Shown: positions 1 to 54,341 of the stretch, piece by piece
How positions within the stretch are numbered: position 1 is the first letter of the stretch
How the letters are laid out: each line of letters opens with the position of its first letter
Source of the DNA: Sabellastarte sp. h YS-2021
Lineage: Eukaryota > Annelida > Polychaeta > Sabellida > Sabellidae
DNA: 64,000 nucleotides
Direction: 5' to 3'
NCBI GenBank assembly: GCA_964017235.1
Contig: OZ024929.1
Coordinates: 164,285,609-164,349,608 of the forward strand
Made by a program: the position numbers and the translations under genes
The notes under the pieces: model-generated
Database searches by the model: none
What the model was told of the DNA's origin: nothing
The model's input: only the letters and a program-made list of their open reading frames with translations

Positions 1-1406
1 TGAAGGTCATCCCGAAGAGGTCTCGTACTCTCACAAAAAGCAAAGCCATAAGCAGCCAGTTGACCCGAGCTCTGCCTCGGACCAACTAAATGAGGATTCC
101 GATGAACCTCGGATCCCTTCTTCTAGATCCAAAAAACACTCTGACAAGAGCAAACATAAATCAAGATCTAGATACGTGTCATTTTCCTCAGAGGAGGATC
201 ACTCCCCTGTAGCCAGACACAGGTCTTCTAAGCCCTCTAGGGCTCAGCCCTCAGGCGCAGCTTCTGATCAAGACCTCCCACAACATGATCCAGACCCCCC
301 TTATTATAGGGAAGTAGCTTTGTCCGACATGCCCTCACAATACTCTGAAGAAGTAGACACCTTCAGGCGTATTCTGTCTCTCCCTGACCCCAGGGAATCT
401 ATGCCCAGGTCGTCCACTTCAGTGTTGGGTCTGGATGATGAAAAAGGCCGTCAAGAGCTCAGACCTAGAGGTCCTTCCTCTATCCTTCCACTTAGCTCAG
501 TTATCAAGGACGCCTTTGATAAATTCCAACATGACTTTAAGGCTGCCAATTTATCTGAGGGAAAATAAGTCAAGCCTCCGCCCTCAACTTCAAAGTGGTA
601 CAAGGTGGGACAGCCAACTTTTCAGGACAAAATTCAGGAGTTGAATACGGACTTTGCTAAGATCTGTATTACTCCTAGACCTTCTGGGTCCCCAGTAGCC
701 AGAGTTCCCCTGCCAGTTCTCAAGGAGCTGGAACTTCAGGCTAGACAAAATATCTCTACCCTCAACTTCACCGCTGCTTTTGCCAAAACCTCCTCCTCTT
801 GCAATGCTTCATTGGAAAAATGCCAACATAGCATCAAGTCTACGGTCAAGAAGATAAAATCTCAGATTCAGAAAGGTGCCAATCCTGAGAAAGCGGCAAA
901 GCGCGGATATGAGGAAGTAGCTGACTACTTAGAATTTTGGAACAAGACAGTACATGTTCAACACAGGGCCCTCACTTGTCTCAGCAAATCTCTAGCCCAT
1001 ATTTTGCAGAGGGAATTATACTCTATGGCTAATACCGGCTTGCTCAGGTGTGAAGCCGAGATGACTCTATTACATCCACAATTTGGAGAAACGAGACGTC
1101 AGGAACTCGTCCTTTTGGGGCCCTTCCTTGTTCGAGTCTCAATTAGTGAAGGAAGGTGAGGACTTCCTTCTCAAAAAAGGCACCTCAAAAGATTCTCAGG
1201 GTTTTGCACCCTACCAGAATAAGCCCTTTCGTGGTCCCCACAAGAAAAGAGGCTCCTACAGGAAACGCCTGTATGGGGGCAATACCTCTCAAAGCAGTAA
1301 CCAGTCCTTTCCCTCGGGAAGAGGAAAATCCAACTTCAGAGGCTCCAGGGGTCGTTTTCAACCCCACAATAGAGGAAGGGGGCGTGGAAACCCCCCTCCC
1401 CAATGA
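1..1406 (+). pseudogene. DIRS family A gag-like ORF1, broken
   Basis: The sequence matches the A2 gag at 40500-41534 and 47871-48215. It shows the same Ser/Arg-rich linker, the central conserved segment, and a C-terminal Arg/Gly-rich tail ending in NPPPQ before a TGA at 1404-1406. Breaks seen: TAA at 566-568 where A2 has TAT, and a frame change near 1085-1160, where one frame stops at 1157-1159 and the tail continues in another. ORF1 in DIRS elements is taken to be a Gag-like RNA-binding protein; here the RG-rich tail supports nucleic-acid binding. The true start lies left of the window. Confidence 0.85.
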
Positions 1407-8210: not shown

Positions 8211-8211
8211 A

Positions 8212-15715: not shown

Positions 15716-17854
15716 ATGTCTTCTCCTGGCCAGAAGAGAGGGAGTTGTGGCCATGCAATGGCTATTTTCGACGGACATGCCTTCTGCGCACGTTGTAGGG
15801 AAAAGGGGAAAGGTGAGGAACCGTGTATTGCTAACAAAGACACTGCAGACTGTACTCTCTGTAATTCATTCACCCCTGAGCAACGTGCCCAGATCTCTAC
15901 TCCATCGTATAAAATCAAGAAAGAGAAAAGGGAGGCAAAACGTTTGGATAATACCCAACCCACGGACGAACTTGTAGACCCTTCCAGTGTCTCCGTCATT
16001 GGGGTTGTTAGTGGGCCTAGTGCTGATAAATCGCCTGCACCACCTGATAAGAAACTCAAAAAGGAAAAGCCCCCTGCTAAAACCAAGAATTCATCTTCAA
16101 CTCTCTCTTCTGCCACGGAAGAAAAGTTTTCAGCCCTTGAGGACAAATGGGCGGATCGTTTCAATAGGCTAGAAGCCTTACTCTTAGCCAGATCCATAGA
16201 ACCTACCTTCTCTTCAGATGTCAGGGTCGCTCCAGATCACCCTCCACCAGGAAATGTTTCACGTGACTCTGAACCCTTTTTTCATCCAACTGAAAAGTCT
16301 CTGGACATCTCACAGCGCACTGGCCCAGACTCTAGTGCTGCCTTGCAGCCGTCGGCCGGTAAGCTACCCTCAGAACATGCTTCACAAGGTTCTTCAACTG
16401 TTAAGCGCACTGGCCCAGACATTATTGCTTCACAGCAAAAGTCGGCCGGTAAGCTGAAATCTAAGACTAACACTGCTACACAAGGACGCACTGGTCCAGA
16501 CACCGCTTCTCAGAAGCATAAGTCGACCGGCAAGCCTAGCTCAGACTCTCACCGACCTTCAACTCTTCCTGTTGAGACATCCGACCACCCTCCCTCCGAC
16601 CGACCTGTGAGTTCAACCGGCTCATTTTCACCGACCCCTCAGGCGGGCAGAAAAGACAGTATTTCTAGTTTGGACTCGGATACCCAGAGTCAGCTGTCTG
16701 ACACTCCTCCGGTGGAACTTTTTGTAGAGGAGGGAGATTTGTCTGACGACCAGGAATTTGATCAAGAACTTCCGACGTCAGAAGAGCAAACCTACCGGGA
16801 AACTATGAGAGGCATACGTTCCTTCATGGGGTGGTCTCATATTCCTGATATGGACAGCTCAAACCCTTCAGACGACAACCCCTTCGCGGATCCCAAGGCT
16901 CCGGCACCCAGCAAGATTTCAGTACAAATGCCTACAGAGGACTGGCTCTGCCGAAAATTAGCTAAACTCAACCTCAACATGACTGAGGGATACCCCTCCA
17001 GAACCACTGAAGCCGGTAGTCTTCCCATGGACCATTTCCTCCGGCCTCCAAAACCACAGACTAAATGGTATGGTCTTTACTCTGACCAGCAGTTAGATCC
17101 AGCCACAGTCATCAGTTGGCATACAGGCCCGGCTAAGTTGAATAACAGTTTTGGGAGAATAGCCAGGAAAGCCGCCTTAGCAGCTACACCCCCAGCTTCG
17201 CGTAGAATCTCTCAAGATACACTCAGACGCTGGGAGAGGACGGCCAGAGAGGCCTCAGTAGTGTGTAATCAAACGGCCAGCTTCAATCGCTGTTTGTTTA
17301 AAGTGCAAGGGGACATGCAAGCACAGTTGAAAGTTATATGTTCAGACAATAAAGGCAAAGTTTCCAAGAAACTATCCGACGCCTCTGAAGAATTACAATT
17401 CCTTATGGAATTCAATTCTAGCATCACACAGGCCACAGCCAAGGCAATGGAGCACTTGACAGACTTTGTTTTCATTACCATGGGGAACCTTGCCTTGGCC
17501 CGTCGGGATTCATATCTCAGCCATCTAAAGAACGGAGTGAAACCAGACACGTTTGCCGCCCTTAGGACCGGCCCACTCCATATAGCCACCTTGTTTACAG
17601 AAACAGTTGTTAAAAAGGCTGAGGAAGAGATTGCCCTGTATGATAGTAAGAGTCACCCGACTGCCACCACTTCGCATACTAGGCAACGTTTCCACCCATA
17701 TGAACGCCCGGATAAGAAACAGGAGAGTCGGTCGGAGGGAAAACAGGACAGACCCGCCTGGAAGAATATCAACAGGCGACCCTTCAAGCGAGGCAGGGGA
17801 AAAGCCTCTAACTTCTCTTCCCGACCTTCCCGCGGTCACCAACACTATAAATGA
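15716..17854 (+). CDS. DIRS family B Gag-like protein (B1)
   Basis: 712 residues, starting at the first ATG after the terminal repeat (MSSPGQKRGSCGH, shared with B2-B4). Residues ~10-75 hold a conserved Cys/His pattern: GSCGHxMAxFD, HxxCxRCRxKGxG, then CxLC, and a TPSYK-like segment. A long Ser/Pro/Thr-rich linker has three RTGPD...GK repeats (about 200-270). The conserved core begins at YRETMRGIRSFMGW and DWLCRKLAKLNL, and a basic Gly/Arg-rich tail ends in HYK. The family role is RNA binding and particle formation; the zinc-binding reading of the N-terminus is inference. The TGA is followed by CAATTA. Confidence 0.9.
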   Translation: MSSPGQKRGSCGHAMAIFDGHAFCARCREKGKGEEPCIANKDTADCTLCNSFTPEQRAQISTPSYKIKKEKREAKRLDNTQPTDELVDPSSVSVIGVVSGPSADKSPAPPDKKLKKEKPPAKTKNSSSTLSSATEEKFSALEDKWADRFNRLEALLLARSIEPTFSSDVRVAPDHPPPGNVSRDSEPFFHPTEKSLDISQRTGPDSSAALQPSAGKLPSEHASQGSSTVKRTGPDIIASQQKSAGKLKSKTNTATQGRTGPDTASQKHKSTGKPSSDSHRPSTLPVETSDHPPSDRPVSSTGSFSPTPQAGRKDSISSLDSDTQSQLSDTPPVELFVEEGDLSDDQEFDQELPTSEEQTYRETMRGIRSFMGWSHIPDMDSSNPSDDNPFADPKAPAPSKISVQMPTEDWLCRKLAKLNLNMTEGYPSRTTEAGSLPMDHFLRPPKPQTKWYGLYSDQQLDPATVISWHTGPAKLNNSFGRIARKAALAATPPASRRISQDTLRRWERTAREASVVCNQTASFNRCLFKVQGDMQAQLKVICSDNKGKVSKKLSDASEELQFLMEFNSSITQATAKAMEHLTDFVFITMGNLALARRDSYLSHLKNGVKPDTFAALRTGPLHIATLFTETVVKKAEEEIALYDSKSHPTATTSHTRQRFHPYERPDKKQESRSEGKQDRPAWKNINRRPFKRGRGKASNFSSRPSRGHQHYK

Positions 17855-20162
17855 CAATTATTATGTACACAAGGATACAAGCCAGTTGATGACCGGGACT
17901 TTCCACACAGACAATACATTGAACAATTTATTGACTTTAAATGTAAAGCCTCCTGTTGTCAAATTTGTACCTTCTGCACCCGGGCTTCCACAAAGGAAAG
18001 GGATAAGTCCCGGGGTGCCAGAATGTCAAGTAAAAAGGTGTCAATTAAAATCTGTGAAAAGTGTTTCTTGTGTCACTCCATTGTCTTATGCCAATTCTGT
18101 TCCAAATGTACCAAATGCTGCCCTCACTCTGCCTGTAGGGGCCAGACTGCAAAATTTTTGGCAGACTTGGCTGGACCGGGGTGCCGGTCCCAAAGTAGTT
18201 CAAATCCTGCGAGAGGGCTACACCCTCCCTTTCCGGATCCGACCAAACCTCACAAGAATTCCCACAGTCGTAAGCTGCTATGCCAATCCTCTCAGGAACA
18301 GCTACCTTTTAGAGGCATTGCATCAGCTTATCGACAAAAATCCTGTAGAACAGGTTTCCCATCAGACCTCGCTGGGGTTTTACAACCGACTCTTTTTAGT
18401 CCCCAAACCCAACAACAAATGGAGACCTATATTGGACCTCAGCCATCTGAACCAATTCCTCAAAGTAGAGAAATTCAAGATGGAAACACCGGAAACCATC
18501 AGAACCTCCCTCTTACAAGGGGAATGGGTAACGTCGGTGGACTTCAAGGATGCTTATTTCCACATACCGATACAGAAACAGTCCCGGAAATACCTCAGAT
18601 TTCAGGTCCAGGACCAAACCTACCAGTTCAAAGCTCTTCCCTTTGGTCTATCCACAGCACCCATGGAATTCACTGTAATCACAAAGGAAGTCAAGCTAAT
18701 GGCCATGCACAAGGGTATAAGAATCCACCAGTACCTAGACAACTGGTTAGTAAGAGCCAAATCCCCCCAGGCCTGTCTCCAGCATACTCAGATGCTGGTA
18801 AAAATATGCCAGGATCTAGGCTGGTTAGTGAATTTGGAAAAATCAGAGCTGGAACCCAAACAAGTCTTCAACTTTGTAGGCTACCAGTTCGACCTCAAGT
18901 CCGGTTGGGTCCGACCGACACCGGACCGGTGGCAAAGCCTCCAGGGAAAGATACAACAACTTTTATTGCTGCCGGCCTGTCCGGCCCGGCAATTCATGTC
19001 CTTGATAGGTCTGTTAACAGCCACAGAGAAGCAAGTTCACTTAGGCCGATTACACATGAGACCCATTCAGTGGCATCTCAAAAACAACTGGAGGGTACCG
19101 GAATCCTTAGAAAAGGTCATCCCTCTACCCAGGTCCCTGCACCCACATTTATGCTGGTGGCTGGAAGAAAGCAATGTCCTCCAAGGACAACCGTTAAACC
19201 CTATGAGGCACGCTCTGCAAATATTTACAGACGCCTCAAAAGAAGGGTGGGGCGCTCACTTAAACGAGTTCATAGCAAGAGGGTCCTGGTCGGTACCAGA
19301 AAGCAAGCTGCACATAAACTACCTAGAACTCAAAGCGGTTCTCCTAGCCCTCAAAGAGTTCCAAAGTCTCTGTGTGGGCAAAATAGTCCTAGTGGCAACC
19401 GACAATACTACGGTAGTCGCTTACATAAACAAAGAAGGAGGCATGAGGTCAGGCCCACTCTGTGCCCTCCTGTGGAGAATCTTAACCTGGTGTTCCCACA
19501 GACAGGTGACCCTAAAGGCCCGGCATATCCCGGGCCACCTCAATGTGATAGCCGACAAGCTATCCAGACTGGGTCAGACCATCCAAACCGAATGGTCCCT
19601 CCTTCCAGCAGTTTTTCAACAACTATGCACACAATGGCACCGGCCTCAGATAGACCTATTTGCCACGAGGTTCAACCGCAAGTTACCTCAGTTTGTCTCT
19701 CCAGTACCGGACACCCTGGCTGTAGCAGTGGATGCACTCACTCTGCCGTGGGACGATCTGGATGCATACGCCTTCCCACCGACCGCCATATTGAGCAAAG
19801 TGGTGAAGCTGCTGAACTCCCCGTGCAAAAGACTCATTCTGATTGCGCCGGGATGGCCCAACATGCCCTGGTTTTGGGACCTAGTGGCCATGTCCAGTCG
19901 GGCCCCTCTCAGTCTGCCCAACCTGCCCAATCTGCTAACACAGCCCTTCAATCAGATTCCTCACAGAAATCTGACAAATCTAAATCTCCATGCTTGGCTC
20001 CTAGAGCCGCAAAAATCAAAGAACAAGGTTTCTCTGAGGCAGTGGCAGCAAGAATTGAGGCTCCTCAAAGGAAATCAACCAGATCAGTCTATGAGGCAAA
20101 GTGGACCCTTTTTACAAAGTGGTGCTACACTAATCAGGTGGACTTCAGGTCACCACCTGTAA
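17607..20162 (+). CDS. RT-RNase H-MT frame of B1, RT active site altered
   Basis: The frame is +1 to gag and overlaps its last ~250 nt; the listed start is the ORF limit, not a proven initiator. The RT core runs from RPILDLSHLN through SVDFKDAYFHIPI and FGLSTAP to YLDN at residues 376-379, where every other copy has YLDD. Loss of the second aspartate of YxDD should abolish polymerisation. RNase H (FTDASKEGWGAHL, ELKA, ATDNTT, HIPGHLNVIAD) keeps its acidic residues. The methylase-like tail has DLFAT, AYAFPP and IAPGWPNMPWFWDL. It overlaps the YR frame along most of its length. Confidence 0.9.
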   Translation: MLKRLRKRLPCMIVRVTRLPPLRILGNVSTHMNARIRNRRVGRRENRTDPPGRISTGDPSSEAGEKPLTSLPDLPAVTNTINDNYYVHKDTSQLMTGTFHTDNTLNNLLTLNVKPPVVKFVPSAPGLPQRKGISPGVPECQVKRCQLKSVKSVSCVTPLSYANSVPNVPNAALTLPVGARLQNFWQTWLDRGAGPKVVQILREGYTLPFRIRPNLTRIPTVVSCYANPLRNSYLLEALHQLIDKNPVEQVSHQTSLGFYNRLFLVPKPNNKWRPILDLSHLNQFLKVEKFKMETPETIRTSLLQGEWVTSVDFKDAYFHIPIQKQSRKYLRFQVQDQTYQFKALPFGLSTAPMEFTVITKEVKLMAMHKGIRIHQYLDNWLVRAKSPQACLQHTQMLVKICQDLGWLVNLEKSELEPKQVFNFVGYQFDLKSGWVRPTPDRWQSLQGKIQQLLLLPACPARQFMSLIGLLTATEKQVHLGRLHMRPIQWHLKNNWRVPESLEKVIPLPRSLHPHLCWWLEESNVLQGQPLNPMRHALQIFTDASKEGWGAHLNEFIARGSWSVPESKLHINYLELKAVLLALKEFQSLCVGKIVLVATDNTTVVAYINKEGGMRSGPLCALLWRILTWCSHRQVTLKARHIPGHLNVIADKLSRLGQTIQTEWSLLPAVFQQLCTQWHRPQIDLFATRFNRKLPQFVSPVPDTLAVAVDALTLPWDDLDAYAFPPTAILSKVVKLLNSPCKRLILIAPGWPNMPWFWDLVAMSSRAPLSLPNLPNLLTQPFNQIPHRNLTNLNLHAWLLEPQKSKNKVSLRQWQQELRLLKGNQPDQSMRQSGPFLQSGATLIRWTSGHHL
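17848..17863 (+). promoter_or_regulatory. predicted UGA readthrough site (B1)
   Basis: The gag stop TGA (17852-17854) is followed by CAATTA, which fits the CARYYA context of tobamovirus-type readthrough. The frame then stays open to 21070. ATAAATGACAAT around the stop is conserved in all four family B copies. Confidence 0.6.
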
Positions 20163-21070
20163 AGTCGGTGGCTGACTTCCTGATGTACCTCTTTGAGGAA
20201 AAGAAGTTGCAGCCCAGCACCATTGATGGATACAGGTCTGCCATTGCTGATAAACTAGGTGATACAACCCTAAATATCAGCAAAGATCATAATCTCACTC
20301 GTCTCTTGGAAAGTTTCCACAGAGACAGACCCAAAGGGCGGAGGGGAATACCTTCCTGGAATCTTTCCCTGGTACTACACCAGCTGACAAAGCCCCCTTT
20401 CGAACCTTTTAGGGAAGCATCTCTGAAGCATCTGACCTTCAAAACTGTCTTCCTTTTGGCCCTCGGCTCTGGCAAAAGGAGTGAGATCCATGCATGGCAG
20501 CATAAAAACATCAGACACCAGTCGGACTGGTCTAAGGTGTCTCTGTTTCCATCTCCCAGCTTTCTCTCCAAGAATCAGCTGGCCAAGGAGGGTCCGGAGA
20601 GTGTAGCCCCAGTGGTCATACCAGCCCTGGCTCCTACTCTGGATAGATCCCTCAAGTCTGATAGGTCTCTTTGTCCAGTCAGAGCCTTACGCTACTATTT
20701 GGACAGGACTTCAGACCTTAGGCAGGACAAACAATTAGTTTTTGTCTCCTTCAAGAAAGGCTTCGACAAAGACATCTCGCCTGCCACTATCTCCTCATGG
20801 ATCAAGCAAACTGTGATCCTATGCTATGAGCTCTCTGATCATCAAGCCCACACTCTCCATCAAGTTAAAGCTCATGATGTAAGGGCTTTCGCTGCTTCTA
20901 AGGCCTTCCAGTCGGGAGTCTCCTTAGAGCAGATCTTATCAGCCTGCCACTGGAAATCTCATACCTTCACCCAATTCTATCTGAAGGACGTGGCTTGGGC
21001 TGACTCAGAGCTCTACCATCTCGGACCGGTTGTGGCTGCTCAGCAGATCCACCAACAGGCTGGTACCTAG
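17855..21070 (+). CDS. B1 tyrosine recombinase, predicted Gag readthrough product
   Basis: 1,071 codons in the gag frame, immediately after its TGA and open to the stop at 21068-21070. The first ATG (18023) is not shared by other copies. The N-terminal ~95 residues hold a Cys cluster: CKASCCQICTFC, then CEKCFLCHS and CQFCSKCTKCC. The middle ~600 codons lie under the RT frame and look disordered (Ser/Pro/Gln-rich). The YR domain begins near IKEQGFSEAVAARIEAPQR (~20010), with the HDVRAFAASKAF box and CHWKSHTFTQFYLKD. Compared with B2-B4, one arginine codon is missing in GKRSEIHAW and one Asn codon in the CHW box. DIRS YR integrates circular cDNA without target duplication. Confidence 0.85.
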   Translation, partial: QLLCTQGYKPVDDRDFPHRQYIEQFIDFKCKASCCQICTFCTRASTKERDKSRGARMSSKKVSIKICEKCFLCHSIVLCQFCSKCTKCCPHSACRGQTAKFLADLAGPGCRSQSSSNPARGLHPPFPDPTKPHKNSHSRKLLCQSSQEQLPFRGIASAYRQKSCRTGFPSDLAGVLQPTLFSPQTQQQMETYIGPQPSEPIPQSREIQDGNTGNHQNLPLTRGMGNVGGLQGCLFPHTDTETVPEIPQISGPGPNLPVQSSSLWSIHSTHGIHCNHKGSQANGHAQGYKNPPVPRQLVSKSQIPPGLSPAYSDAGKNMPGSRLVSEFGKIRAGTQTSLQLCRLPVRPQVRLGPTDTGPVAKPPGKDTTTFIAAGLSGPAIHVLDRSVNSHREASSLRPITHETHSVASQKQLEGTGILRKGHPSTQVPAPTFMLVAGRKQCPPRTTVKPYEARSANIYRRLKRRVGRSLKRVHSKRVLVGTRKQAAHKLPRTQSGSPSPQRVPKSLCGQNSPSGNRQYYGSRLHKQRRRHEVRPTLCPPVENLNLVFPQTGDPKGPAYPGPPQCDSRQAIQTGSDHPNRMVPPSSSFSTTMHTMAPASDRPICHEVQPQVTSVCLSSTGHPGCSSGCTHSAVGRSGCIRLPTDRHIEQSGEAAELPVQKTHSDCAGMAQHALVLGPSGHVQSGPSQSAQPAQSANTALQSDSSQKSDKSKSPCLAPRAAKIKEQGFSEAVAARIEAPQRKSTRSVYEAKWTLFTKWCYTNQVDFRSPPVKSVADFLMYLFEEKKLQPSTIDGYRSAIADKLGDTTLNISKDHNLTRLLESFHRDRPKGRRGIPSWNLSLVLHQLTKPPFEPFREASLKHLTFKTVFLLALGSGKRSEIHAWQHKNIRHQSDWSKVSLFPSPSFLSKNQLAKEGPESVAPVVIPALAPTLDRSLKSDRSLCPVRALRYYLDRTSDLRQDKQLVFVSFKKGFDKDISPATISSWIKQTVILCYELSDHQAHTLHQVKAHDVRAFAASKAFQSGVSLEQILSACHWKSHTFTQFYLKDVAWADSELYHLGPVVAAQQIHQQAGT

Positions 21071-22110: not shown

Positions 22111-22119
22111 TTTCACACA

Positions 22120-31901: not shown

Positions 31902-33845
31902 ATGGCATCTCCAGGACAAAGGAAAGGAGCCTGCGGGCATATCATGGCTAATTTTGACCCTCATTCTCGTTGTGCCAGATGCAGAGATAAAGGGTTGGGC
32001 CAAGACCCGTGTGTTTTAAAGTTGCAGTGTGAGTTTTGTGACACTTTAACCCCTGAACAATTGCTCCAGCTTTCAACCCCTACGTACAAACTGCGGAAGG
32101 AGAAATCTAAAACCAAAGAAGCCCTTGTGGATCCGTCCACTGTCACTATCGTGTCGCAGGTGGAATCTCAGGAAGTTGCTTCAACTTCTCCACCCCATGT
32201 TGCTGAGCAAGATCTCTCTTTACCTCCACCTATGTTCCGCCAAGAGTTAAAAGACTTGGACGAAAAGTGGTCAGTACGTATGGCCCGTCTGGAAGCACTC
32301 ATTACTTTGGGGCAGCGTCCTTCACCTCAACCTTCCTTCTCACCGGTCAAGGCACCGGTACCGCATCAAGCTCCCGCGGGAGCTCTTTCTCAGGCACCTT
32401 TTCTCTTATCATCTGTCCCTTCCGGCCAAGCCGCCCCGGCTTTTGGCCCGGATAGGATAAAACCTAGTGCCACTGTCACTACCAGCTCAATAACTAGGAC
32501 GTCTCCTCTAGAAGGCCTTTACTCTGAACAGGACCCGGAACCGGTATTCTCTCAACAGAGTTCTTCCGGCCCGGTGGCCTCTGCTTTGCCTCAACCTCCT
32601 CCGCAATCCAGCTTGTTCAAGTCAGCCCCGGAGCACTTTGAGGAAGGTGAGGTATCTGACCAAGAAGACGTCACTGACCATCCTGATCAAGAATCTCCAG
32701 ACTTGGATAAGACATTGAGCGAAGATCAAAATTACAGAGAGACTGTTAGGGGAGTACGTGCTTTCATGGGCTGGTCACATATCCCAGATCTTGAGTATAC
32801 TCCAAGTTCCAAGTCAGACAATCCCTGGATTGGCCACCGGGCACAACCTGTAGGCAAGGTCTCTATCGACTTACCACCAGAGGACTGGCTTTGTAAGAAA
32901 CTTGAAAATTTAAATCTCGTCCTCATAGAAGGTTACCCGTCCAAGTCTACGGAACCGGGTGGACTTCATGTTGATCAGTATCTCCGCCCCCCCAAGTCTC
33001 AGGCAAGGTGGTACGGGATTCATCCCGCTGAAAATAAAGACATCACTAGGCCGGGAAAATATGTAACTACTTGGCCCAATGACGCGGCGAAGTTGAACAG
33101 TTCCTTTGCCCGAATTGGTAAACCTGCTCTTGCTTCATCCCAACCCACCTCCCGCCCTATTGCTCAGGATACGCTCCGGAAGTGGGAGAAAGCAGCAAAA
33201 GAGACCAGTTATATTTGTAACCAGTCCGCTGGTTTCAATAGGTGCATCACCAAGATACAGGACTCGTTTCAAGAACAGTTACAAATTCTTCAGACAGAGT
33301 TGGGAAAAGGAAAATCTTCCACAAAAGCTCAAGGTGCACTTGATGAATTACATTTCCTGTCTGCATTCAACCAAAATGTGAGTTTTGCGGTTGGCAAATC
33401 CCTCCAACACCTCTCAGATTTCACTTTTATACAAATGGCTAATTTAACTCTGGTCAGGAGGGATTCTTATCTTGAGCACCTAAAAGCTGGCGTCAAGCCA
33501 GATACCTTTTCCTCTCTCAGGAACTGTCCTCTACAAACCAGGGCTTTGTTTCCGGACGACATTATCCGGAGGGCGGAAGATGAAATAGCAGCATTTGAGT
33601 CACATAAGCGTACCAACCAGCCCGGTCCGGGCCGTGGTGGGTTCGCCGGCACTCAGAAAAAGCAACACCGTTACCAGCCATATTCAACATGGAAACAGGA
33701 GGATTCTGGAAACTCCGGGGCTCCCGGCAAAGAGATGCCTGCATGGAAAACATTTGGCAATCGCGGGAGAGCCCGTGGCAGAGGCAGGGGTGGTCAACCC
33801 GGTCGCGGTTCGCGCCCTGCCAGAGATGCTAAGGCGTATAAATGA
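31902..33845 (+). CDS. DIRS family B Gag-like protein (B2), intact
   Basis: 647 residues from an ATG in a strong ACCATGG context. The N-terminal Cys/His segment has ACGHIMANFD, HSRCARCRDKG, DPC, CEFC and TPTYKLRKEK. The linker is Pro/Ser-rich. The conserved core starts at YRETVRGVRAFMGWSHIPD and DWLCKKLENLNL, with NQSAGFNRC and RRDSYLEHLKAGVKPDT later. The basic tail (RGRARGRGRGGQPGRG) ends in AYK. It has no frameshift or stop, unlike B3 and B4. TGA CAATCA follows. Confidence 0.92.
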   Translation: MASPGQRKGACGHIMANFDPHSRCARCRDKGLGQDPCVLKLQCEFCDTLTPEQLLQLSTPTYKLRKEKSKTKEALVDPSTVTIVSQVESQEVASTSPPHVAEQDLSLPPPMFRQELKDLDEKWSVRMARLEALITLGQRPSPQPSFSPVKAPVPHQAPAGALSQAPFLLSSVPSGQAAPAFGPDRIKPSATVTTSSITRTSPLEGLYSEQDPEPVFSQQSSSGPVASALPQPPPQSSLFKSAPEHFEEGEVSDQEDVTDHPDQESPDLDKTLSEDQNYRETVRGVRAFMGWSHIPDLEYTPSSKSDNPWIGHRAQPVGKVSIDLPPEDWLCKKLENLNLVLIEGYPSKSTEPGGLHVDQYLRPPKSQARWYGIHPAENKDITRPGKYVTTWPNDAAKLNSSFARIGKPALASSQPTSRPIAQDTLRKWEKAAKETSYICNQSAGFNRCITKIQDSFQEQLQILQTELGKGKSSTKAQGALDELHFLSAFNQNVSFAVGKSLQHLSDFTFIQMANLTLVRRDSYLEHLKAGVKPDTFSSLRNCPLQTRALFPDDIIRRAEDEIAAFESHKRTNQPGPGRGGFAGTQKKQHRYQPYSTWKQEDSGNSGAPGKEMPAWKTFGNRGRARGRGRGGQPGRGSRPARDAKAYK

Positions 33846-36162
33846 CAATCACTGCAAAGTTCCTCCGGAAGTAACATCCTGTCCGGAGTTTGGTGTTGTA
33901 AATGTAACAAAGACAAGTCTTCCTGTTCTTGTGAAAGACTCTGTAAATTGTCACAATGTTGTTCATCATGTACTTTCTGTAAAAAACATCAGGCAGCCGC
34001 AAAAGAAAGGCATAAGTCCAATCTTAAACTCACAAAATACAATAAAGTATGTGAAAAGTGCTTCTTTTGTAAATCACTGTGTCTTTGCCCCAAGTGTGTC
34101 AAATGTCCTCAGTGTTGCAAATGTCCAATCAGTAGGGGGACGCCTACAAAATTTTTGGAAAATATGGACTCTCAAGGGTGCAAACCCGAAGGTAGTATCC
34201 ATTTTGAAAAAGGGCTATGTGCTTCCCTTCAAGGTCAGACCTCCCTTAATAAGGGAACCCCTGATAGTAAGCGGCTATGCAAACCCCACCAGAGACTCCC
34301 ACTTACAAGAAGCAGTGCAAGCTCTGATCAAGAAAAAGGCAGTAGAGAGGGTCAGGGTTCGAACCTCACTAGCCTTTTTCAACAGATTGTTCATTGTCCC
34401 AAAGCCGAACCAAAAGTGGCGGCCAATCTTGGATCTCAGTACTCTAAATCAGTTTTTATGCGTAAAAACATTCAAAATGGAGACTCCAGAGACAATCCGG
34501 ACCTCTCTACAACAAGGCGAGTGGGTGTCATCAATAGATTTCAGCGACGCCTACTTCCACATTCCAATCCACTTCACATCCCGAAAATTCCTCAGGTTCC
34601 ACTTCCAGAACCAGTCGTACCAGTTTCGGGCTCTTCCCTTTGGCCTCTCAACAGCTCCCATGGAGTTCACTGCTGTGGTCAAAGAGGTCAAGTTAATGGC
34701 TCAGTCACGGGGTATAAGAATCCACCAGTACCTAGACGACTGGTTGATTCGAGCCCCTACCAAAGAATCTTGCCACCAGGGAACCCAGTCCCTCCTAGCC
34801 CTTTGCCAGGAGTTGGGCTGGATGGTAAACATGCAAAAATCAGAACTGGAACCCCAACAAGTCTTCGACTTTGTAGGCTACCAGTACGACCTGCTCAACG
34901 GACTGGTCAGACCGACTCAAAACCGTTGGGAAGCCCTTCAACAAAAAATAACAGGGCTATTGCAGAGGAGATCTTGCCAAGTGAGAACTTTCATGTCTCT
35001 TATAGGCCTTCTCACTGCGACAGAAAAACAGGTGACCCTAGGCAGACTGCACATGAGACCTATTCAGTGGCACCTCAAGAAACACTGGAGAGTCCCGGAA
35101 TCTCTGGAAAAAGAGATCCCAATTCCGCGGTCTCTCCATCAGCACCTGCAGTGGTGGACCCAGGAGTCAAAGGTCCTAAAGGGTCAACCCTTACACCCCC
35201 TACAACACGCAATACAAATCTTTACAGACGCCTCAAAAGAAGGCTGGGGTGCTCACTTAGGCGACTTCACAGCAAGCGGGACTTGGTCAGTGCCCGAAAG
35301 CAAATTACACATAAACTTCTTAGAGCTAAAAGCCGTGTTGTTAGCACTAAAAAGATTCCAACACTTAGTGCAAGGAAAGGTCGTCCTGATTGCCACAGAC
35401 AACACCACAGTTGTGGCATACATCAACAAGGAGGGAGGTATGAGGTCAGGTTCACTTTGTGCCCTTCTCTGGCGGCTCCTATGTTGGTGCAATCTCAGAC
35501 AAACAGTACTGAAGGCCAGACATATTCCGGGCCGTCTGAATGTAATTGCAGACAAGTTGTCTCGCCAGGGACAGGTCATTCAGACAGAGTGGTCCCTCCA
35601 TCAGGAGATCTTCGACACCCTTTGTCGAACTTGGCATTATCCCCAAGTGGACATGTTTGCAACAAGGTACAACTGCAAACTAGTCCGGTTTGTGTCCCCA
35701 ATTCCAGACCCGAAGGCCTGGTCAGTGGACGCTCTGACGCTGTCCTGGGAAAACCTGGACATGTACCTCTTTCCCCCAGTGTCTCTGATGGGGAAGGTGG
35801 TCAGCAAGCTGTCAGACCATTGGTATCACAGAGCAATCCTGATTGCTCCGGGATGGCCAAACATGCCTTGGTTTTGGGACCTAGTGGAGCTGTCGGCCAT
35901 GGTTCCTCTTTGTCTTCCACACCATCCAGATCTAGTGACCCAACCTTTCAACAAGGCACGTCACAGGGATCTGACAAGCTTAAATCTCCATGCCTGGCTC
36001 CTAGAGCCCAGACCATCAAGGAGCAAGGGTTTTCTAGCCCAGTGGCGGCAAGAATTGAGGCGCCTCAAAGACGTTCAACCAGAGCAGTCTACGAGGCAAA
36101 GTGGGCCCTTTTTGTTAGATGGTGCGAAACAAGTCAGGTGGACTTCAGGAACCCATCTATAA
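33595..36162 (+). CDS. RT-RNase H-MT frame of B2, intact
   Basis: 855 codons in the +1 frame relative to gag; the first ~84 overlap gag. No ATG occurs between the gag stop and the RT core, so a fused Gag-RT by frameshift fits better than a separate start. RT: RPILDLSTLN, SSIDFSDAYFHIPI, FGLSTAP and YLDD at residues ~379-382. RNase H: FTDASKEGWGAHL, ELKA, ATDNTT, HIPGRLNVIAD. The methylase-like end: DMFAT, LFPP, IAPGWPNMPWFWDL. All key acidic residues visible in the motifs are kept. Confidence 0.92.
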   Translation: MSHISVPTSPVRAVVGSPALRKSNTVTSHIQHGNRRILETPGLPAKRCLHGKHLAIAGEPVAEAGVVNPVAVRALPEMLRRINDNHCKVPPEVTSCPEFGVVNVTKTSLPVLVKDSVNCHNVVHHVLSVKNIRQPQKKGISPILNSQNTIKYVKSASFVNHCVFAPSVSNVLSVANVQSVGGRLQNFWKIWTLKGANPKVVSILKKGYVLPFKVRPPLIREPLIVSGYANPTRDSHLQEAVQALIKKKAVERVRVRTSLAFFNRLFIVPKPNQKWRPILDLSTLNQFLCVKTFKMETPETIRTSLQQGEWVSSIDFSDAYFHIPIHFTSRKFLRFHFQNQSYQFRALPFGLSTAPMEFTAVVKEVKLMAQSRGIRIHQYLDDWLIRAPTKESCHQGTQSLLALCQELGWMVNMQKSELEPQQVFDFVGYQYDLLNGLVRPTQNRWEALQQKITGLLQRRSCQVRTFMSLIGLLTATEKQVTLGRLHMRPIQWHLKKHWRVPESLEKEIPIPRSLHQHLQWWTQESKVLKGQPLHPLQHAIQIFTDASKEGWGAHLGDFTASGTWSVPESKLHINFLELKAVLLALKRFQHLVQGKVVLIATDNTTVVAYINKEGGMRSGSLCALLWRLLCWCNLRQTVLKARHIPGRLNVIADKLSRQGQVIQTEWSLHQEIFDTLCRTWHYPQVDMFATRYNCKLVRFVSPIPDPKAWSVDALTLSWENLDMYLFPPVSLMGKVVSKLSDHWYHRAILIAPGWPNMPWFWDLVELSAMVPLCLPHHPDLVTQPFNKARHRDLTSLNLHAWLLEPRPSRSKGFLAQWRQELRRLKDVQPEQSTRQSGPFLLDGAKQVRWTSGTHL
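33839..33854 (+). promoter_or_regulatory. predicted UGA readthrough site (B2)
   Basis: TGA (33843-33845) plus CAATCA, which fits CARYYA. Surrounding ATAAATGACAATCACTG is identical in B3. Confidence 0.6.
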
Positions 36163-37064
36163 AACAAATAGCAGATTTCCTCCTGCATCTTTTCCAGGAG
36201 AAGAATCTCCAGCCCAGCACTATTGATGGTTACAGGTCAGCCATTTCAGACAAACTGGGAAATGCCTCGGTTAATGTTGGCAAGGATGACAATTTGACTA
36301 GACTGTTAGACAGTTTTCACAGAGATAGACCCAAAGGGCGCCGGGGGGTTCCTGCTTGGAACCTCTCCCTGGTTTTACACCAGCTTACAAAGGCGCCTTT
36401 TGAACCACTCAGAAAGGCTTCTCTGAAACACCTTACTTTCAAAACGGTTTTTCTCCTAGCCCTGGCTTCAGGAAAACGTAGGAGTGAGATTCACGCTTGG
36501 TTAAACAAAAATATCAGACACCAAGCTGACTGGTCCAAAGTTTCCCTCTACCCTTCACCAAGCTTCTTGGCGAAAAATCACTTGGCAAAAGAGGGACCAG
36601 AGTGCGTGGCCCCGGTGGTCATCCCGGCTTTAGCCCCCACTCTGGATAAGTCGTTACAAGAAGACAGATCCCTTTGCCCCGTTCGGGCTCTTCGCTATTA
36701 CCTGGACAAAACCCAGGACCTAAGAACGGGAAAGGAGTTAGTTTTTGTTTCATTCAAACAAGGTTTTAACAAGGACATCTCTCCTGCCACTATCTCATCC
36801 TGGATCAAACAAACAGTAGTTTTGTGTTATGATCTTTCTGACCAAGATACCTTGACCCTACATCAGGTTAAGGCCCATGATGTTAGGGCATTTGCGGCCT
36901 CCAAGGCTTTTCAAGGTGGCATATCTCTGGACCAGATTCTAGCAGCATGCCACTGGAAATCCCACAACACCTTTACACAGTTTTACCTTAAGGATGTTGC
37001 CTGGGCAGATAAGGAGCTTTTTCACTTGGGTCCTGTGGTGGCTGCCCAGCAGATCCACCACTAG
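33846..37064 (+). CDS. B2 tyrosine recombinase, predicted Gag readthrough product
   Basis: 1,072 codons in the gag frame directly after its TGA, without an ATG before the Cys cluster. The cluster reads WCCKCNKDKSSCSC, CSSCTFC, AKER, CEKCFFCKS, CPKCVKCPQCC. A long low-complexity segment under the RT frame follows. The YR domain starts near IKEQGFSSPVAARIEAPQR (~36020). Catalytic landmarks are GKRRSEIHAW, HDVRAFAASKAF and CHWKSHNTFTQFYLKD. This is the most complete YR in the window. It would act in the nucleus on circular cDNA. Confidence 0.88.
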   Translation, partial: QSLQSSSGSNILSGVWCCKCNKDKSSCSCERLCKLSQCCSSCTFCKKHQAAAKERHKSNLKLTKYNKVCEKCFFCKSLCLCPKCVKCPQCCKCPISRGTPTKFLENMDSQGCKPEGSIHFEKGLCASLQGQTSLNKGTPDSKRLCKPHQRLPLTRSSASSDQEKGSREGQGSNLTSLFQQIVHCPKAEPKVAANLGSQYSKSVFMRKNIQNGDSRDNPDLSTTRRVGVINRFQRRLLPHSNPLHIPKIPQVPLPEPVVPVSGSSLWPLNSSHGVHCCGQRGQVNGSVTGYKNPPVPRRLVDSSPYQRILPPGNPVPPSPLPGVGLDGKHAKIRTGTPTSLRLCRLPVRPAQRTGQTDSKPLGSPSTKNNRAIAEEILPSENFHVSYRPSHCDRKTGDPRQTAHETYSVAPQETLESPGISGKRDPNSAVSPSAPAVVDPGVKGPKGSTLTPPTTRNTNLYRRLKRRLGCSLRRLHSKRDLVSARKQITHKLLRAKSRVVSTKKIPTLSARKGRPDCHRQHHSCGIHQQGGRYEVRFTLCPSLAAPMLVQSQTNSTEGQTYSGPSECNCRQVVSPGTGHSDRVVPPSGDLRHPLSNLALSPSGHVCNKVQLQTSPVCVPNSRPEGLVSGRSDAVLGKPGHVPLSPSVSDGEGGQQAVRPLVSQSNPDCSGMAKHALVLGPSGAVGHGSSLSSTPSRSSDPTFQQGTSQGSDKLKSPCLAPRAQTIKEQGFSSPVAARIEAPQRRSTRAVYEAKWALFVRWCETSQVDFRNPSIKQIADFLLHLFQEKNLQPSTIDGYRSAISDKLGNASVNVGKDDNLTRLLDSFHRDRPKGRRGVPAWNLSLVLHQLTKAPFEPLRKASLKHLTFKTVFLLALASGKRRSEIHAWLNKNIRHQADWSKVSLYPSPSFLAKNHLAKEGPECVAPVVIPALAPTLDKSLQEDRSLCPVRALRYYLDKTQDLRTGKELVFVSFKQGFNKDISPATISSWIKQTVVLCYDLSDQDTLTLHQVKAHDVRAFAASKAFQGGISLDQILAACHWKSHNTFTQFYLKDVAWADKELFHLGPVVAAQQIHH

Positions 37065-39330: not shown

Positions 39331-41703
39331 TTTTATTACGCTACAATAGCTTACCATGTGGGACTTAATGCTGTTCTCGGGTTGCCACACCCGGGGCCAA
39401 CGTCTTAGAAAAAAAGATCGTTCTTGTTAGCCACCGGATGTACTGGTAGTTGTCGTCACGTGATAACTTCTGACCAATGGCCCTACTTTCTCGTTGGCCA
39501 TGATTGACTGGTAGCAGTTTGTAAATATACAGACATTTTCATTTATTTCTCAGTATTCACGTATTGTTGGAGGCTAATATTTGGATATTTCTTTAAATTT
39601 ATGTCATAGATTATCCTGTAAAATTTTTAATTTCACAACTTAAGTATTTTCCTTACAATCCGCGTGTTGAGTTTTCTCGGTTCAGGCAATCTTAATTGTA
39701 CGTCTTTTTATTGCGTTAAAATGTCCCTTCATCAAGCAAACAAAGACAAACCGAGAGCTCAGAAATGCCGCCATTTTTGCTTCAGTTTTGATACTCATAA
39801 TTACTGCCCTACCTGTAGGGAGGCTGGCAAGGGAGATGACCCCTGTGTCACTTTTGAAGCGCCCTGCCATATTTGTACGTCTCTCTCTGATGAACAATTA
39901 CAAAAGATTCAAAACAGGAAGCGGTACTTAAAAAAGCAAAAAGCGGAAACTAGTTCCAAAGATGAACTAGATCTCTTGGGTGAAGGCGATGGGGACTCTT
40001 TTAATGGTTCTAATGCAGACCTTGAGAGTGCTGCCGATAACCTCTTTACCTCACCCCCCCCCGTCCTCAACCTCTCGCCTTCAGTTCTTTATCACTAAAG
40101 ACCCCAGCCAAGGCTGTTCCTCCCACCCCAGGTACTGTTTTACAAAATAAAATTCAAAGAAATCTAGAGAAATCCCTGGGTGATTCCTTAAATATACATA
40201 TCCAGCAGCAAATGGGTTCCTTCCAGGCATCCATGTTAGAAGCATTTCAGTCACTCCGAGAGGAGTTAGCAGTTAAAAAATCTGCCGAGGTTGATCCCTC
40301 GCATCATGCTTCAAAAGCTGTTCCATCCAGCAACTCTGCTGCTCATCTGGACCTACCCCCTCCGAGGTCAAGTACTAATGCACAGTCTGAGGCTATGGAT
40401 GTGGACATTGGTCCAGCACTCCCTCCTCGTCTAGTATTAAATCAAACTTCCTCGGATCAGTACGTTGCCCCTTCTGAAGCAATACCGAAGGATTCCTCGT
40501 ACTCACATAAAAAACAAAGCCACAGACAAACAGTAACACCGAGCTCTGCCTTGGATCATCTGGATGAGGATTCCGACGAATCTCGGATCCATTCTAGACC
40601 TAAGAAACACTCTGACAAGAGCAAGCATAAATCTAGGTCCAGATATGTGTCATCTTCAGAGGAAGATCACTCCCCTGTGGCTAGACACAGGTCTTCTAAG
40701 CCCTCTAGGGCTCAGCCCTCAGGCGCAGCTTCTGATCAAGACCTCCCACAACATGATCCAGACCCCCCTTATTATAGGGAAGTAGCCCTGTCTGACATTC
40801 CCTCCCAATACTCTGAAGAGGTAGACACCTTCAGGCGCATTCTTTCTCTCCCTGACGCCAGGGACTCTATGCCTAGGTCTTCAACTTCAGTGTTGGGTCT
40901 GGATGACGAAAAAGGCCGTCAAGAGCTCAGACCTAGAGGTCCTTCCTCTATCTTACCACTTAGCTCAGTTATCAAGGACGCCTTTGATAAATTTCAACAT
41001 GATTTCAAAGCTGCCAATTTATCTGAGGGAAAATATGTCAAGCCTCCTCCATCCACTTCTAAGTGGTATAAGGTTGGACAGCCCACTTTTCAAGACAAAA
41101 TCCAGGAGTTGAATACGGACTTTGCCAAGATCTGTATTACTCCTAGACCTCCTGGGGCACCAGTAGCCAAAGTCCCTATGCCAGTCCTTAAGGAGCTGGA
41201 ACATCAGGCTAGACAAAATATCTCAACCCTCAATTTCACCGCTGCCTTTGCCAAAACCTCTTCTTCTTGCAATGCTTCCTTGGAGAAGTGTCAACATAGC
41301 ATCAAGTCAACTGTCAAGAAGATTAAATCTCAGATCCAGAAAGGTGCCAATCCTGAGAAAGCAGCAAAGCGCGGATATGAGGAAGTTGCTGAGTACTTAG
41401 ATTTTTGGAACAAGACTGTTCTTGTTCAACATAGAGCTCTTACCTGTCTCAGCAAATCGCTAACCCATATTCTCCAGAGGGAATTATATTCCATGGCCAA
41501 TACCGGCTTGCTTAGGCGCGAAGCCGAAATGACTTTTTTATTGCGTTAATACATCCTATCCAATGGACAATTGCTTTACCGGTCGGCGCGACCGGTCCCG
41601 CCAAACGCCAGAAAAAGACGTCCTGTATATACTACCGGCAGGACCGGTCACAGAGTGTGCATTCGCCAGGTGGCGCATCGTACTTCATTTCCTGTTTACC
41701 TCT

Positions 41704-41737
41704 TGACGTCATAGCATCTTTTTCGTTTGGCGCGAAA
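41704..41737 (+). promoter_or_regulatory. CRE and E2F-like sites at the B3 left end
   Basis: TGACGTCA at 41704-41711 and TTTGGCGCGAAA at 41726-41737. Inverted E2F-like CCCGCCAAA at 41597-41605 lies in the terminal repeat. They lie ~115-150 bp before the gag ATG at 41850. Confidence 0.5.
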
Positions 41738-41849: not shown

Positions 41850-43873
41850 ATGTCGTCTCCTGGACAGAAACGAGGTTCTTGCGGGCACGTTATGGCCCTT
41901 TTCGACAACCATAAGAAATGCGCGCGTTGTCGTGACAAGGGGGTGGGAGACGACCCGTGTGTGAAGAAGTTGCCTTGTAGTATCTGTAAGGCGTTTACGC
42001 CTGCTCAGATCCACCAGTTAGCAACCCCCACCTATAAGGAACGGAAAGAACGCTCTAGCCAGAAGAAATCTGAAGAATTGACAAGTACGTCTCCCAAGCT
42101 TGTTGATCCGTCTGAGGTTTCACTGCTGGGTCCAGTCAACTCAGGGACGCAGTCTCCTGTTGATTCTACACCCAAGCAGAAGAAGAAGCGTTCTGATGGC
42201 TCCCCAAGGTCTAGTAAACGGAAGCACAGCAGTAAGCCCACTTCAGATGACCTCAAGTCCCTTGATGACAAGTGGAGTGAGAGATTTTCCCGTCTGGAAG
42301 CAATGCTGGTTAACCAGTCATTTGCTGTCCCTGTGAGACCGGTGAATTCTGCTTCTGTGGTGCCCAGAGAACACCCCTTCTTTGATCCGGGTGCCTCTAC
42401 AAGTGTTATGTTTTCTGAGGGCACTAGTGACGTTGCTACGCAGTTGACGGCTACCCAACCTCCGCTGGGGGTTCCCGGTACACAAGCTGTGAAGGAAGTT
42501 ACTAAGAGTGCTACCCACCCTGTTCAGGGCCCCGGTACCTCTGAGACTGTTGCCACCCAACCTTTACTGGTTCCCGGTGCAGGGACTGCCACCCAGCCTC
42601 CACAGGCTCCGGTGCGGATCCTGAGGTTCTGCCTTCCGGTTATGAAACTACGCTGTCTAACCAGTCGCCTCCCATTGGCCAGAATTCTGAGGTTGCTAGG
42701 GAATCTGACAGTGAGGCTGAGGTGGATGCGGAACCGGTTTCACCGGCTAGTGTTCACTACCAGGGTGATGTACCGGAATCAAACACTGACCAGGATCTTT
42801 CTGAGGATGCTAATTACCGGGAAACATTGAGAGGGGTGAGGAGTTTCATGGGCTGGCATCAAATCCCGGATTATGACACCTCAGCTGCATCCATGGATGA
42901 CAATCCCTTTGCCGGTTCTAGAGTGAAGACTACCGGTAAAGTGTCAGTAAAATTGCCGGTGGATGAATGGCTTTGTAAGAAGCTGGAGAAACTAAATGTG
43001 ACTATTGCTGAAGGTTATCCTTCTAGGAATACTGAAACCAGTGGACTGCTGCGTGATCAATTTGTCAAGACACCCCGTACTTCCAAGTGGTACGACATGC
43101 AAGCTGTTAAGAAGGATGCGTCTAACCAGGCTGTTGGTGACTGGTCTCCGGAACCGGCAAAGCTTAACAGTATGTTTTCTAGAGTTGCAAGGCGCAGTTT
43201 ACCTTCTGCCCCAGCTTCCAGGACCTTCAGCCAGGACACCCTTAGAAGGTGGGAGAGGTCATTCAGAGAACAATCAGTGATGTGTAATCACGCTGCTGGC
43301 CTCTCTAGATGCCTCACCAAAGTACAGGACTCCATGGTCACCCAGTTAAAGTCCCTGAGGTTCGATTCCTCAAAGGGCAAAAGTGCTGAGAAACAACAAC
43401 AAGCTGTTGAAGAACTGGAATATCTGGTTACGTTTAACCGGTCAATTTCACAGGCTATGCAGCGTACCATGCAGGATTTATCAGAGGGAGTCTTTATCAG
43501 CATGGCTAATCTCACCCTGGCACGTCGGGACAGTTATTTAGAGTTCATAAGGGGTGGCATTAAACCGGACACCTTGTCTGCCTTACGTACGTCTCCAGTT
43601 CACCAACTATCACTCTTCCCGGACAGCTTACTGGTCAAAGCTGAAGAGGAAATCTTACGTAGTGAAGAGAGGCGTTCTGCTGGTACCACACCAAGGAAAC
43701 CTGGACGTTTTCATCCATACGTCTCCTCCAACCGAACCCCTCACCAGCCGGACCGGAAGCCCACTACTCCGGCATGGAAGCAGATTAGAGACCGGCAAAC
43801 TGCTCAGAAAGGGGGTGGTAAAGCCTCAAACTTCAGCCAGAAGCCGGCCAGAGGTTTTAAAAAGCATAAATGA
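41850..43873 (+). pseudogene. DIRS family B Gag (B3), one frameshift
   Basis: MSSPGQKRGSCGHVMALFD at 41850 opens the same Cys/His domain as B1 and B2 (HKKCARCRDKG, DPC, CSIC, TPTYKERKE). The frame shifts near 42590-42605, equivalent to one lost base. The rest (TGSGADPEV to the basic tail KASNFSQKPARG) is open to TGA at 43871-43873. The linker has repeats around TQPPLGVPG and THPVQGPG. The core YRETLRGVRSFMGW is present. Otherwise comparable to the intact B2 copy. Confidence 0.9.
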
Positions 43874-47341: not shown

Positions 47342-47498
47342 CAACGTCGGTAGGCTCCCGGTTAACCGGTGAGTTAGTGACCGACCCTGACCCTTCAGGG
47401 TTCTCTGACCCTAGGTCAAATGGGCCTGTTAAAAATTGTTGTTATGAGTTCACATAAGTCCCTAGCTGCTTACCCGCCTACCAAGCGGTAGTTATTCA

Positions 47499-47594
47499 GC
47501 AATTGTCCATTGGATAGGATGTATTAACGCAATAAAATTGCAAATTTAATAAGTAAATTAAATTTTTATAAGTTAATACCCTATCCAATGGACA
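47499..47594 (+). repeat. DIRS internal complementary region of B3
   Basis: Complement of the left tip joined to the complement of the right tip at AATAAAA|TTGCAAATTT. Both tips are present in this copy and match. Confidence 0.94.
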
Positions 47595-54332: not shown

Positions 54333-54341
54333 CAATCATTG
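54326..54341 (+). promoter_or_regulatory. predicted UGA readthrough site (B4)
   Basis: TGA (54330-54332) plus CAATCA; the context ATAAATGACAATCATTG differs from B2/B3 at one base. Confidence 0.58.

Follow-up and report, generated by a model that had tools for sequence, protein, structure and literature searches.

How does one overlapping RNA supply both a tyrosine recombinase (YR) and a reverse transcriptase (RT) in DIRS retrotransposons? The available portions of the open-access papers that we found leave this unexplained. The question is raised here by a 64,000-nucleotide (nt) stretch of the 1.79-Gb genome of the annelid Sabellastarte sp. h YS-2021 (contig OZ024929.1; the window), which contains four copies of one DIRS1-like family (B1–B4, family B) and copies of its sister, family A. 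An initial annotation of this stretch had proposed that the UGA ending gag in B1–B4, followed by CARYYA, is read through, so that YR is made as a Gag–YR protein. The proposal is supported by a near-invariant block around the stop, by codon constraint in the gag frame behind it and by a depletion of stops through the overlap with RT. Judged on the sequence, tobamovirus-type readthrough at UGA-CARYYA, yielding a Gag-Cys-YR product, is the best explanation and a highly probable one.

The gag stop and the frame behind it in the window

The gag open reading frames (ORFs), the putative recoding sites and the gag-frame extensions of the four copies are as follows.

15716..17854, + strand: B1 gag ORF, 712 amino acids from its ATG, ending in UGA; frame open from 15713
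31902..33845, + strand: B2 gag ORF
42848..43873, + strand: B3 gag, 3′ part; the gag frame is broken further upstream
53382..54332, + strand: B4 gag, 3′ part
17849..17860, + strand: B1 putative recoding site, AAA-TGA-CAATTA
33840..33851, + strand: B2 putative recoding site, AAA-TGA-CAATCA
43868..43879, + strand: B3 putative recoding site, AAA-TGA-CAATCA
54327..54338, + strand: B4 putative recoding site, AAA-TGA-CAATCA
17855..21070, + strand: B1 gag-frame extension, 1,071 codons, ending in YR (sub-cut-off Pfam integrase matches, motifs)
33846..37064, + strand: B2 gag-frame extension, Cys-rich stretch to YR, 1,072 codons
43874..47116, + strand: B3 gag-frame extension to YR, 1,080 codons; first AUG after 596 codons (45662)
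54333..57113, + strand: B4 gag-frame extension, 926 codons, YR not reached in frame
55743..56712, + strand: B4 exact tandem duplication of 485 nt, 100% identical

As the initial annotation had claimed, the gag stop is a TGA at 17852, 33843, 43871 and 54330, followed by CAATTA in B1 and CAATCA in B2–B4. The sequence ATAAATGACAAT occurs four times in the window, each time at a gag stop, compared with a mean of 0.03 in shuffled sequence. The gag frame then stays open for the 1,071, 1,072 and 1,080 codons reported for B1, B2 and B3, and for 926 codons in B4, a figure that had not been given. At the end of the extension in B1–B3 we found Pfam integrase matches under the curated cut-off, together with the motifs GK(R)RSEIH, HDVR and HWKSH(N)TFTQFYL, which we take to be the catalytic R, HxxR and HW...Y of YR. 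The B4 extension has no Pfam integrase match, and its 485-nt duplication (485 mod 3 = 2) throws the YR frame off; being exact, the duplication is either recent or an assembly artefact. The in-frame junction of Gag to YR, proposed for all four copies, stands in B1–B3 and is lost through the duplication in B4. The B1 gag product has no match in a Pfam scan.

The stop context is near-invariant among the sampled copies

Copies were sampled by a genome search with a back-translated RT motif, so that they were not chosen by their stop motif. The search gave 14,657 hits, and a reversed control gave none. The listed hits, 100 in number, all come from the first 11.3 Mb of a single contig (C1) and comprise 73 B-type copies (Thr in the motif) and 27 A-type copies (Ser). 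The B-type sample (n = 77) consists of all 73 listed copies and the four of the window, and the A-type sample (n = 14) of 12 of the 27 listed and two of the window; copies selected by the stop motif itself (L001–L008) enter no count. With the stop taken as the best match to the expected 18-mer at ≤5 mismatches, it could be read in 63 of the 77 B copies, which form 36 single-linkage clusters at 85% identity and have a median pairwise identity of 61% between the stop and the RT motif.

In this sample, UGA is the gag stop in 63/63 readable copies and AAA precedes it in 63/63. CARYYA follows in 60/63 (CAATCA 27, CAATTA 27, CAGTTA 4, CAGTCA 1, CAGCCA 1), its R and Y positions varying just as the consensus permits. 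Specifically, positions −3 to +2 are constant, and the following positions are C in 61 copies (+3), A in 63 (+4), R in 62 (+5), Y in 63 (+6), Y in 61 (+7) and A in 63 (+8). Outside this block, from −4 on the 5′ side and from +9 on the 3′ side, bases are variable, some less so than others. AAATGA is present in one representative of each of the 36 clusters, with differing hexamers upstream, and the codon before AAA may be TAT, TTT, CAT, TAC, CGT or others. The wider context that had been called invariant is therefore so among the four window copies, and narrows to a near-constant AAA-UGA-CARYYA in the larger sample. This block is the readthrough consensus extended by the preceding AAA codon, and is kept even where it is free to vary in either reading frame.

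Genome-wide counts agree with the sample. The 14-mer ATAAATGACAATYA occurs 7,625 times, compared with 136 in the reversed control. With identical flanks, UGA (the exact sequence ATAAATGACAATYAYTG) is found 5,320 times (reversed control 4), UAA 66 times (5), UGG 35 times (0), CGA 11 times (2) and UAG 5 times (0). The UAA count is close to that of the sense change UGG, and so is at the level expected from decay rather than that of a thriving alternative stop.

A UGA in every readable copy could in principle encode selenocysteine. CARYYA, however, is no part of the selenocysteine system, and an Rfam scan for a selenocysteine insertion sequence found none in the window or in the segment 15500–22500. 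The window holds no Rfam match at gathering score, and the segment gives two microRNA models, far under their cut-offs (E ≤ 2). We regard the chance of selenocysteine here as negligible.

The gag frame behind the stop is constrained as protein

Immediately behind the UGA lies a Cys-rich stretch, which the initial annotation had overlooked and which overlaps the RT-RNase H ORF in the +1 frame.

17855..18163, + strand: B1 Cys-rich stretch, gag frame, directly behind UGA; no Pfam family
17586..20162, + strand: B1 RT-RNase H ORF, +1 relative to gag, open across UGA
33589..36162, + strand: B2 RT ORF, +1 frame
43551..46202, + strand: B3 RT ORF, +1 frame
54082..56268, + strand: B4 RT ORF, +1 frame, stopping just past the duplication junction

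The stretch takes up the first 89–116 gag-frame codons in 25 representatives, drawn from copies with an open gag frame, and follows the pattern CKxxCCxxCxFCxRAxxKERxKS ... IKICExCFLCHSIVxCxxCxKCxxCCxKSxCRG. Twelve cysteines are invariant in an alignment of 28 sequences, namely the four window copies and 24 database ORFs hand-picked from 120 listed among 1,161 found; some genome copies, for example L107, deviate from the pattern. No Pfam family matches the stretch, and its predicted fold (mean pLDDT 48) is unreliable and was not used. It is probably metal-binding, and perhaps a new metal-binding domain. The starts of the database ORFs are scattered, some ahead of the stretch, some inside it and some beyond it; if YR is made by readthrough, gene finders would be mis-starting these proteins.

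Codon substitution in the Cys-rich stretch points to the gag frame. Among 88 pairs of 75–97% identity, which come from 42 copies and are non-independent in that they share copies, the gag-frame dN/dS is 0.52, with pN < pS in 88/88 pairs, compared with 0.99 in the +1 frame (45/88) and 0.85 in the +2 frame (60/88). The closest 25 pairs behave likewise in the gag frame, with pN < pS in 22. Beyond the stretch the RT frame dominates the constraint (dN/dS 0.14). After exclusion of 28 of the 77 B copies (14 unread and 14 with an indel in the interval from the stop to the RT motif), the 49 in-frame copies have five gag-frame stops in the final 330 nt ahead of the RT motif, compared with 256 in synonymous shuffles of RT (minimum 214). 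The RT overlaps of B1, B2 and B3 have none each, with about 22 expected. Neither the dN/dS set nor the gag-frame stop count was filtered for open frames. Together, the stop depletion and the low dN/dS indicate that the gag frame is kept open for a protein made from it.

These data also bear on the notion that the block is conserved for what it encodes in the RT frame (Ile-Asn-Asp-Asn-His/Tyr-Cys), the gag frame being open by an accident of RT codon use. The +1 frame is indeed open across the UGA, and a similar peptide is read from it in B1–B4. However, the +1 wobble positions within the block hardly vary (T of UGA 63/63, the C after it 61/63, T of UYA 62/63), the +1 frame shows no constraint before RT proper, and the shuffles contradict an accident of codon use, leaving this account very improbable.

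Points against readthrough and other routes to a recombinase

Several observations weigh against readthrough at UGA-CARYYA as the family's way of making YR. Three of the 63 readable copies break CARYYA (AAATAA in two copies of one cluster, CATTCA in one). UAG is nearly absent, though with CARYYA it was as leaky as UGA in a published assay (PMC4132726, in the portion available). The stop finder tolerates ≤5 mismatches, and the 14 unread copies could hide strongly diverged stops. In nine of them (L060, L070, L071, L079, L080, L084, L087, L090 and L093), the upstream part is rearranged and closed in all frames, and these are perhaps non-autonomous derivatives; the other five (L036, L061, L063, L095 and L105) are cut short, shifted or hard to interpret, and no stop could be recognized in L095, which may lack it. 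All copies come from one genome, 73 of the 77 from that first 11.3 Mb. Furthermore, many copies are decayed: ten B-type loci were followed to their 3′ ends, and YR shares the frame of the UGA in five (L043, L045, L051, L052 and L056, with 0, 3, 0, 1 and 1 stops en route), is indel-shifted in L039, L044, L055 and L058, and was not found in L057. The sister family A has UGA-CUCCUN in place of CARYYA. Finally, codon +3 is CTG, TTG or ATG in 47 of the 63 copies and in 27 of the 36 cluster representatives, which gives room for reinitiation.

Under such reinitiation, ribosomes would stop at the UGA and restart six bases downstream, at the CUG, UUG or AUG of codon +3. Nine of the 36 clusters, that of B1 included, have no NTG at this codon (CCT, CAG, TTA, CTT, CTC or ATT); all nine keep UGA-CARYYA, and seven of them hold an in-frame copy whose gag frame is open to the RT motif. 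CARYYA is kept better than the NTG, and the T and G of codon +3 could be accounted for by the next codon of the +1 frame, TGT (Cys). Of the 44 copies with an open gag frame, 36 allowed the first Cys cluster to be scored. In 27 of these the cluster is not preceded by a Met, in six an ATG stands at codon +3, and in three a Met lies elsewhere ahead of the cluster. We consider termination and reinitiation improbable.

Alternatively, a spliced or internally promoted subgenomic RNA might provide a YR start codon, with TATAAA before the UGA serving as a TATA box. TATAAA is the commonest hexamer at this place (20 of 36 representatives), and the gag-UGA-pol junction of Tca2 held a minor promoter, while its flanks gave no readthrough in yeast (PMC2194720, in the portion available). 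However, the TAT of TATAAA varies and the AAA does not. From the UGA up to the first Cys cluster no AG acceptor is common to the copies, and the AG columns that score best (23, 21 and 21 of 25) fall behind that cluster. Nor is any gag-frame AUG position behind the UGA common to the copies; in B3 the first such AUG comes only after 596 codons. In addition, protein constraint starts right behind the UGA. A separate YR start on a spliced or internally initiated RNA, which the initial annotation had named as a finding that would count against it, is hence not indicated, and we rate it as quite improbable.

A model for readthrough at the gag stop

In the model that we favor, gag would end in a leaky UGA at which most ribosomes stop, giving Gag. 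A minority would decode the UGA as an amino acid owing to the AAA-UGA-CARYYA context, which would be of the tobamovirus-like type I and would act without need for RNA structure. The ribosome would then continue in the same frame through the Cys-rich stretch and ~600–700 codons that overlap RT, and into YR, the product being Gag-Cys-YR. Structure predictions behind the UGA give no signal above background, with z-scores of −0.96, −0.73, −0.39 and 0.27 in B1–B4 and 0.29 in family A, as expected for the CARYYA type. In a mammalian reporter, UGA-CARYYA allowed ~15% readthrough, all six bases mattered, and UGA was roughly as leaky as UAG and much leakier than UAA (PMC4132726, in the portion available).

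From the site, its near-invariance, the shared frame and the constraint on that frame, we infer that readthrough occurs and that it involves a minority of ribosomes; YR may act as a Gag fusion or be cut from it. If the model is correct, YR as a Gag fusion would carry the integration enzyme into the Gag particle, in the manner of retroviral gag-pol fusions, and the 5,320 exact sites of this one genome would constitute a large natural family of CARYYA readthrough signals for studies of termination.

The reverse transcriptase frame is also kept open from the stop

The RT frame is the gag +1 frame in B1–B4 and is open across the UGA, from 251–323 nt upstream. That this frame, too, is kept open from the UGA was overlooked by the initial annotation. 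Within the Cys-rich stretch it is not constrained as protein, yet it is stop-free in 23 of the 25 representatives. There are two +1 stops compared with 28 expected when gag codons are shuffled among synonyms (minimum 16), and 251 in the third frame; this test was made on the set filtered for an open gag frame. The depletion suggests that translation in the RT frame sets in close to the UGA or upstream of it. Upstream of the UGA, +1 stops match gag-synonymous shuffles in 13 copies, which gives no hint that an open +1 frame is selected for, and within 200 nt of the UGA the expected number, 2.3, is too low to tell. A +1 shift into RT close to the conserved CRG/PVG boundary was considered and set aside, the +1 frame being stop-depleted already soon after the UGA (with small numbers per bin).

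No +1 AUG position is common to the copies. Some +1 AUG precedes +270 in 36 of the 49 in-frame copies, for example at −17 in B2 and +61 in B3, so that an ordinary RT start is possible for these. Eighteen copies are bounded upstream by a +1 stop in the stretch analyzed, and three of them (L076, L107 and L110, with +1 stops at −89, −86 and −83) have no +1 AUG before +270, the first lying at +517 in L107 and +469 in L110.

One simple reading is that RT is made by a +1 shift at or near the gag UGA. We know of no animal +1 shift with AAA before the UGA. The UGA might then be a three-way switch, yielding Gag by termination, Gag-Cys-YR by readthrough and Gag-RT-RNase H by a +1 shift at AAA-UGA-C. Both downstream frames are kept stop-free from the UGA, neither has a shared AUG, and the AAA is as invariant as the UGA itself, which leads us to this idea; the +1 AUGs of the 36 copies lower its standing, and we offer it tentatively, as a possibility that is rather less likely than not to hold. 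Weak stops can feed in-frame readthrough and +1 shifting alike (PMC9841425, in the portion available). If the switch exists, one stop codon would set the proportions in which structural protein, integration enzyme and replication enzyme are made across a whole retrotransposon lineage.

Family A shares the frame without CARYYA

Family A, which the initial annotation had overlooked in this respect, has the same UGA and frame.

1404..1406, + strand: family A gag stop UGA, then CTCCTC, in frame of its YR, no CARYYA

Family A stops were located by searching for AATGACTC, which 12 of the 14 A copies carry, seven of them in frame with RT; CAA precedes UGA-CTCCTN in 12/14. The window copy, L040, L048 and L053 have the UGA and YR in one frame; frames are broken or indel-shifted in L041, L047 and L054. 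The RT motif lies ~370 nt from the UGA, compared with mostly 600–680 nt in family B, and the Cys-rich stretch is missing from the A copies read. The seven in-frame copies have six gag-frame stops up to the RT motif, compared with 45 expected (minimum 28), and four of the six are in one copy. The shared gag/YR frame is thus wider than CARYYA. Relatives with another stop context had been named as evidence that would count against Gag–YR readthrough; taken to the letter, family A is such a relative, but it too fits a gag–YR fusion. Conservation of the gag stop is seen as AAA-UGA-CARYYA and a shared frame in the B copies of this one genome, and does not extend to CARYYA in family A.

Identity of the elements and other features of the window

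The DIRS label of the initial annotation holds, the elements combining RT-RNase H, YR motifs, inverted terminal repeats and internal complementary regions. The B1 RT ORF, the one scanned, matches Pfam RVT_1 (8e-22) and RVT_3 above cut-off, and the RT ORFs of B2–B4 align with it. Behind RNase H, where a methyltransferase domain would be expected in a DIRS1-like element, B1 has a conserved stretch without a Pfam match.

41555..41726, + strand: B3 left inverted terminal repeat, pairing with 47655–47826 at 100% over 172 nt
47655..47826, + strand: B3 right inverted terminal repeat, partner of 41555–41726
47498..47594, + strand: B3 internal complementary region; the left-end complement (47498–47537) meets the right-end complement (47537–47594)

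The inverted terminal repeats of B4 are 158 nt long and 97% identical. In the short stretches tried, B1 has exact inverted matches of only 50, 20 and 19 nt, and B2 has no inverted terminal match. In B3 and B4, the two copies examined, the sequences complementary to the two ends join at a single point, 47537 in B3 and 58441 in B4 (58401–58441 / 58441–58499).

Tandem arrays with units of 133 or 155 bp flank the DIRS copies (13081–15398 and 21745–22117; 29200–31786; 51277–51839 and 58776–59316). The 133-bp unit stands on both sides of B1, and the 155-bp unit on both sides of B4 and also before B2; these arrays seem to be tied to the DIRS elements. Further arrays have units of 143–169 bp (8209–10078, 12151–13080, 27161–28392 and 61400–62194), most printed units of which share a GATAGAGCGATTTCG-like segment. 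Repeats of 149 nt occur in both orientations at 97–98% identity (5034–5182, 39348–39496 and 50540–50688), and are perhaps termini of family A copies.

Comparison with known systems

In agreement with the initial annotation, which knew of no recoding in descriptions of DIRS expression, we found neither readthrough nor frameshifting described for DIRS elements in the available portions of the open-access full-text literature, most subscription papers lying outside this scope. As far as the portions available go, PMC3266345, PMC5633606 and PMC6681497 describe DIRS ORFs and the YR/RT overlap, PMC5941688 describes DIRS ORFs, and PMC8226300, PMC1224870, PMC1965478 and PMC3587641 mention DIRS or YR elements, all without a recoding step; in a review of frameshifting, 'DIRS' does not occur within the first 300,000 characters (PMC5009743). 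No relatives were confirmed in viral contigs. The signal is a known one, in an element class for which we found no recoding described in the open-access literature.

With tobamoviruses, the B elements share the hexanucleotide CARYYA immediately 3′ of the stop. In tobacco mosaic virus this stop is a UAG before the polymerase, whereas here a UGA in a cellular retrotransposon would feed a tyrosine recombinase. The likeness to gammaretroviral gag-pol is that of a gag stop read through into a low-level Gag–enzyme fusion; there, however, a UAG and a pseudoknot give RT, whereas here UGA and CARYYA, with no structure signal, would give YR in frame, and RT is in +1. The fact that gammaretroviruses use readthrough is itself named in the available portion of one of the papers above (PMC1224870).

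In the Candida element Tca2, a UGA likewise lies between gag and the downstream enzymes, but a 3′ pseudoknot was suspected there, and in yeast its flanks did not promote readthrough (PMC2194720, in the portion available). Antizyme-type +1 frameshifting resembles the present case in a downstream +1 ORF kept open from the stop, and differs in its P-site codon, UCC-UGA (PMC9841425, in the portion available) compared with AAA here in 63/63. Finally, DIRS1-like elements have gag, YR and RT-RNase H ORFs, with a YR/RT overlap in some, inverted terminal repeats and internal complementary regions (PMC3266345, in the portion available), all of which are also present here, and the meeting point of the end complements in B3 and B4 resembles their circular junction. 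They are described there as three ORFs with no recoding step, whereas here YR lies in the same frame as gag, with one UGA between them.

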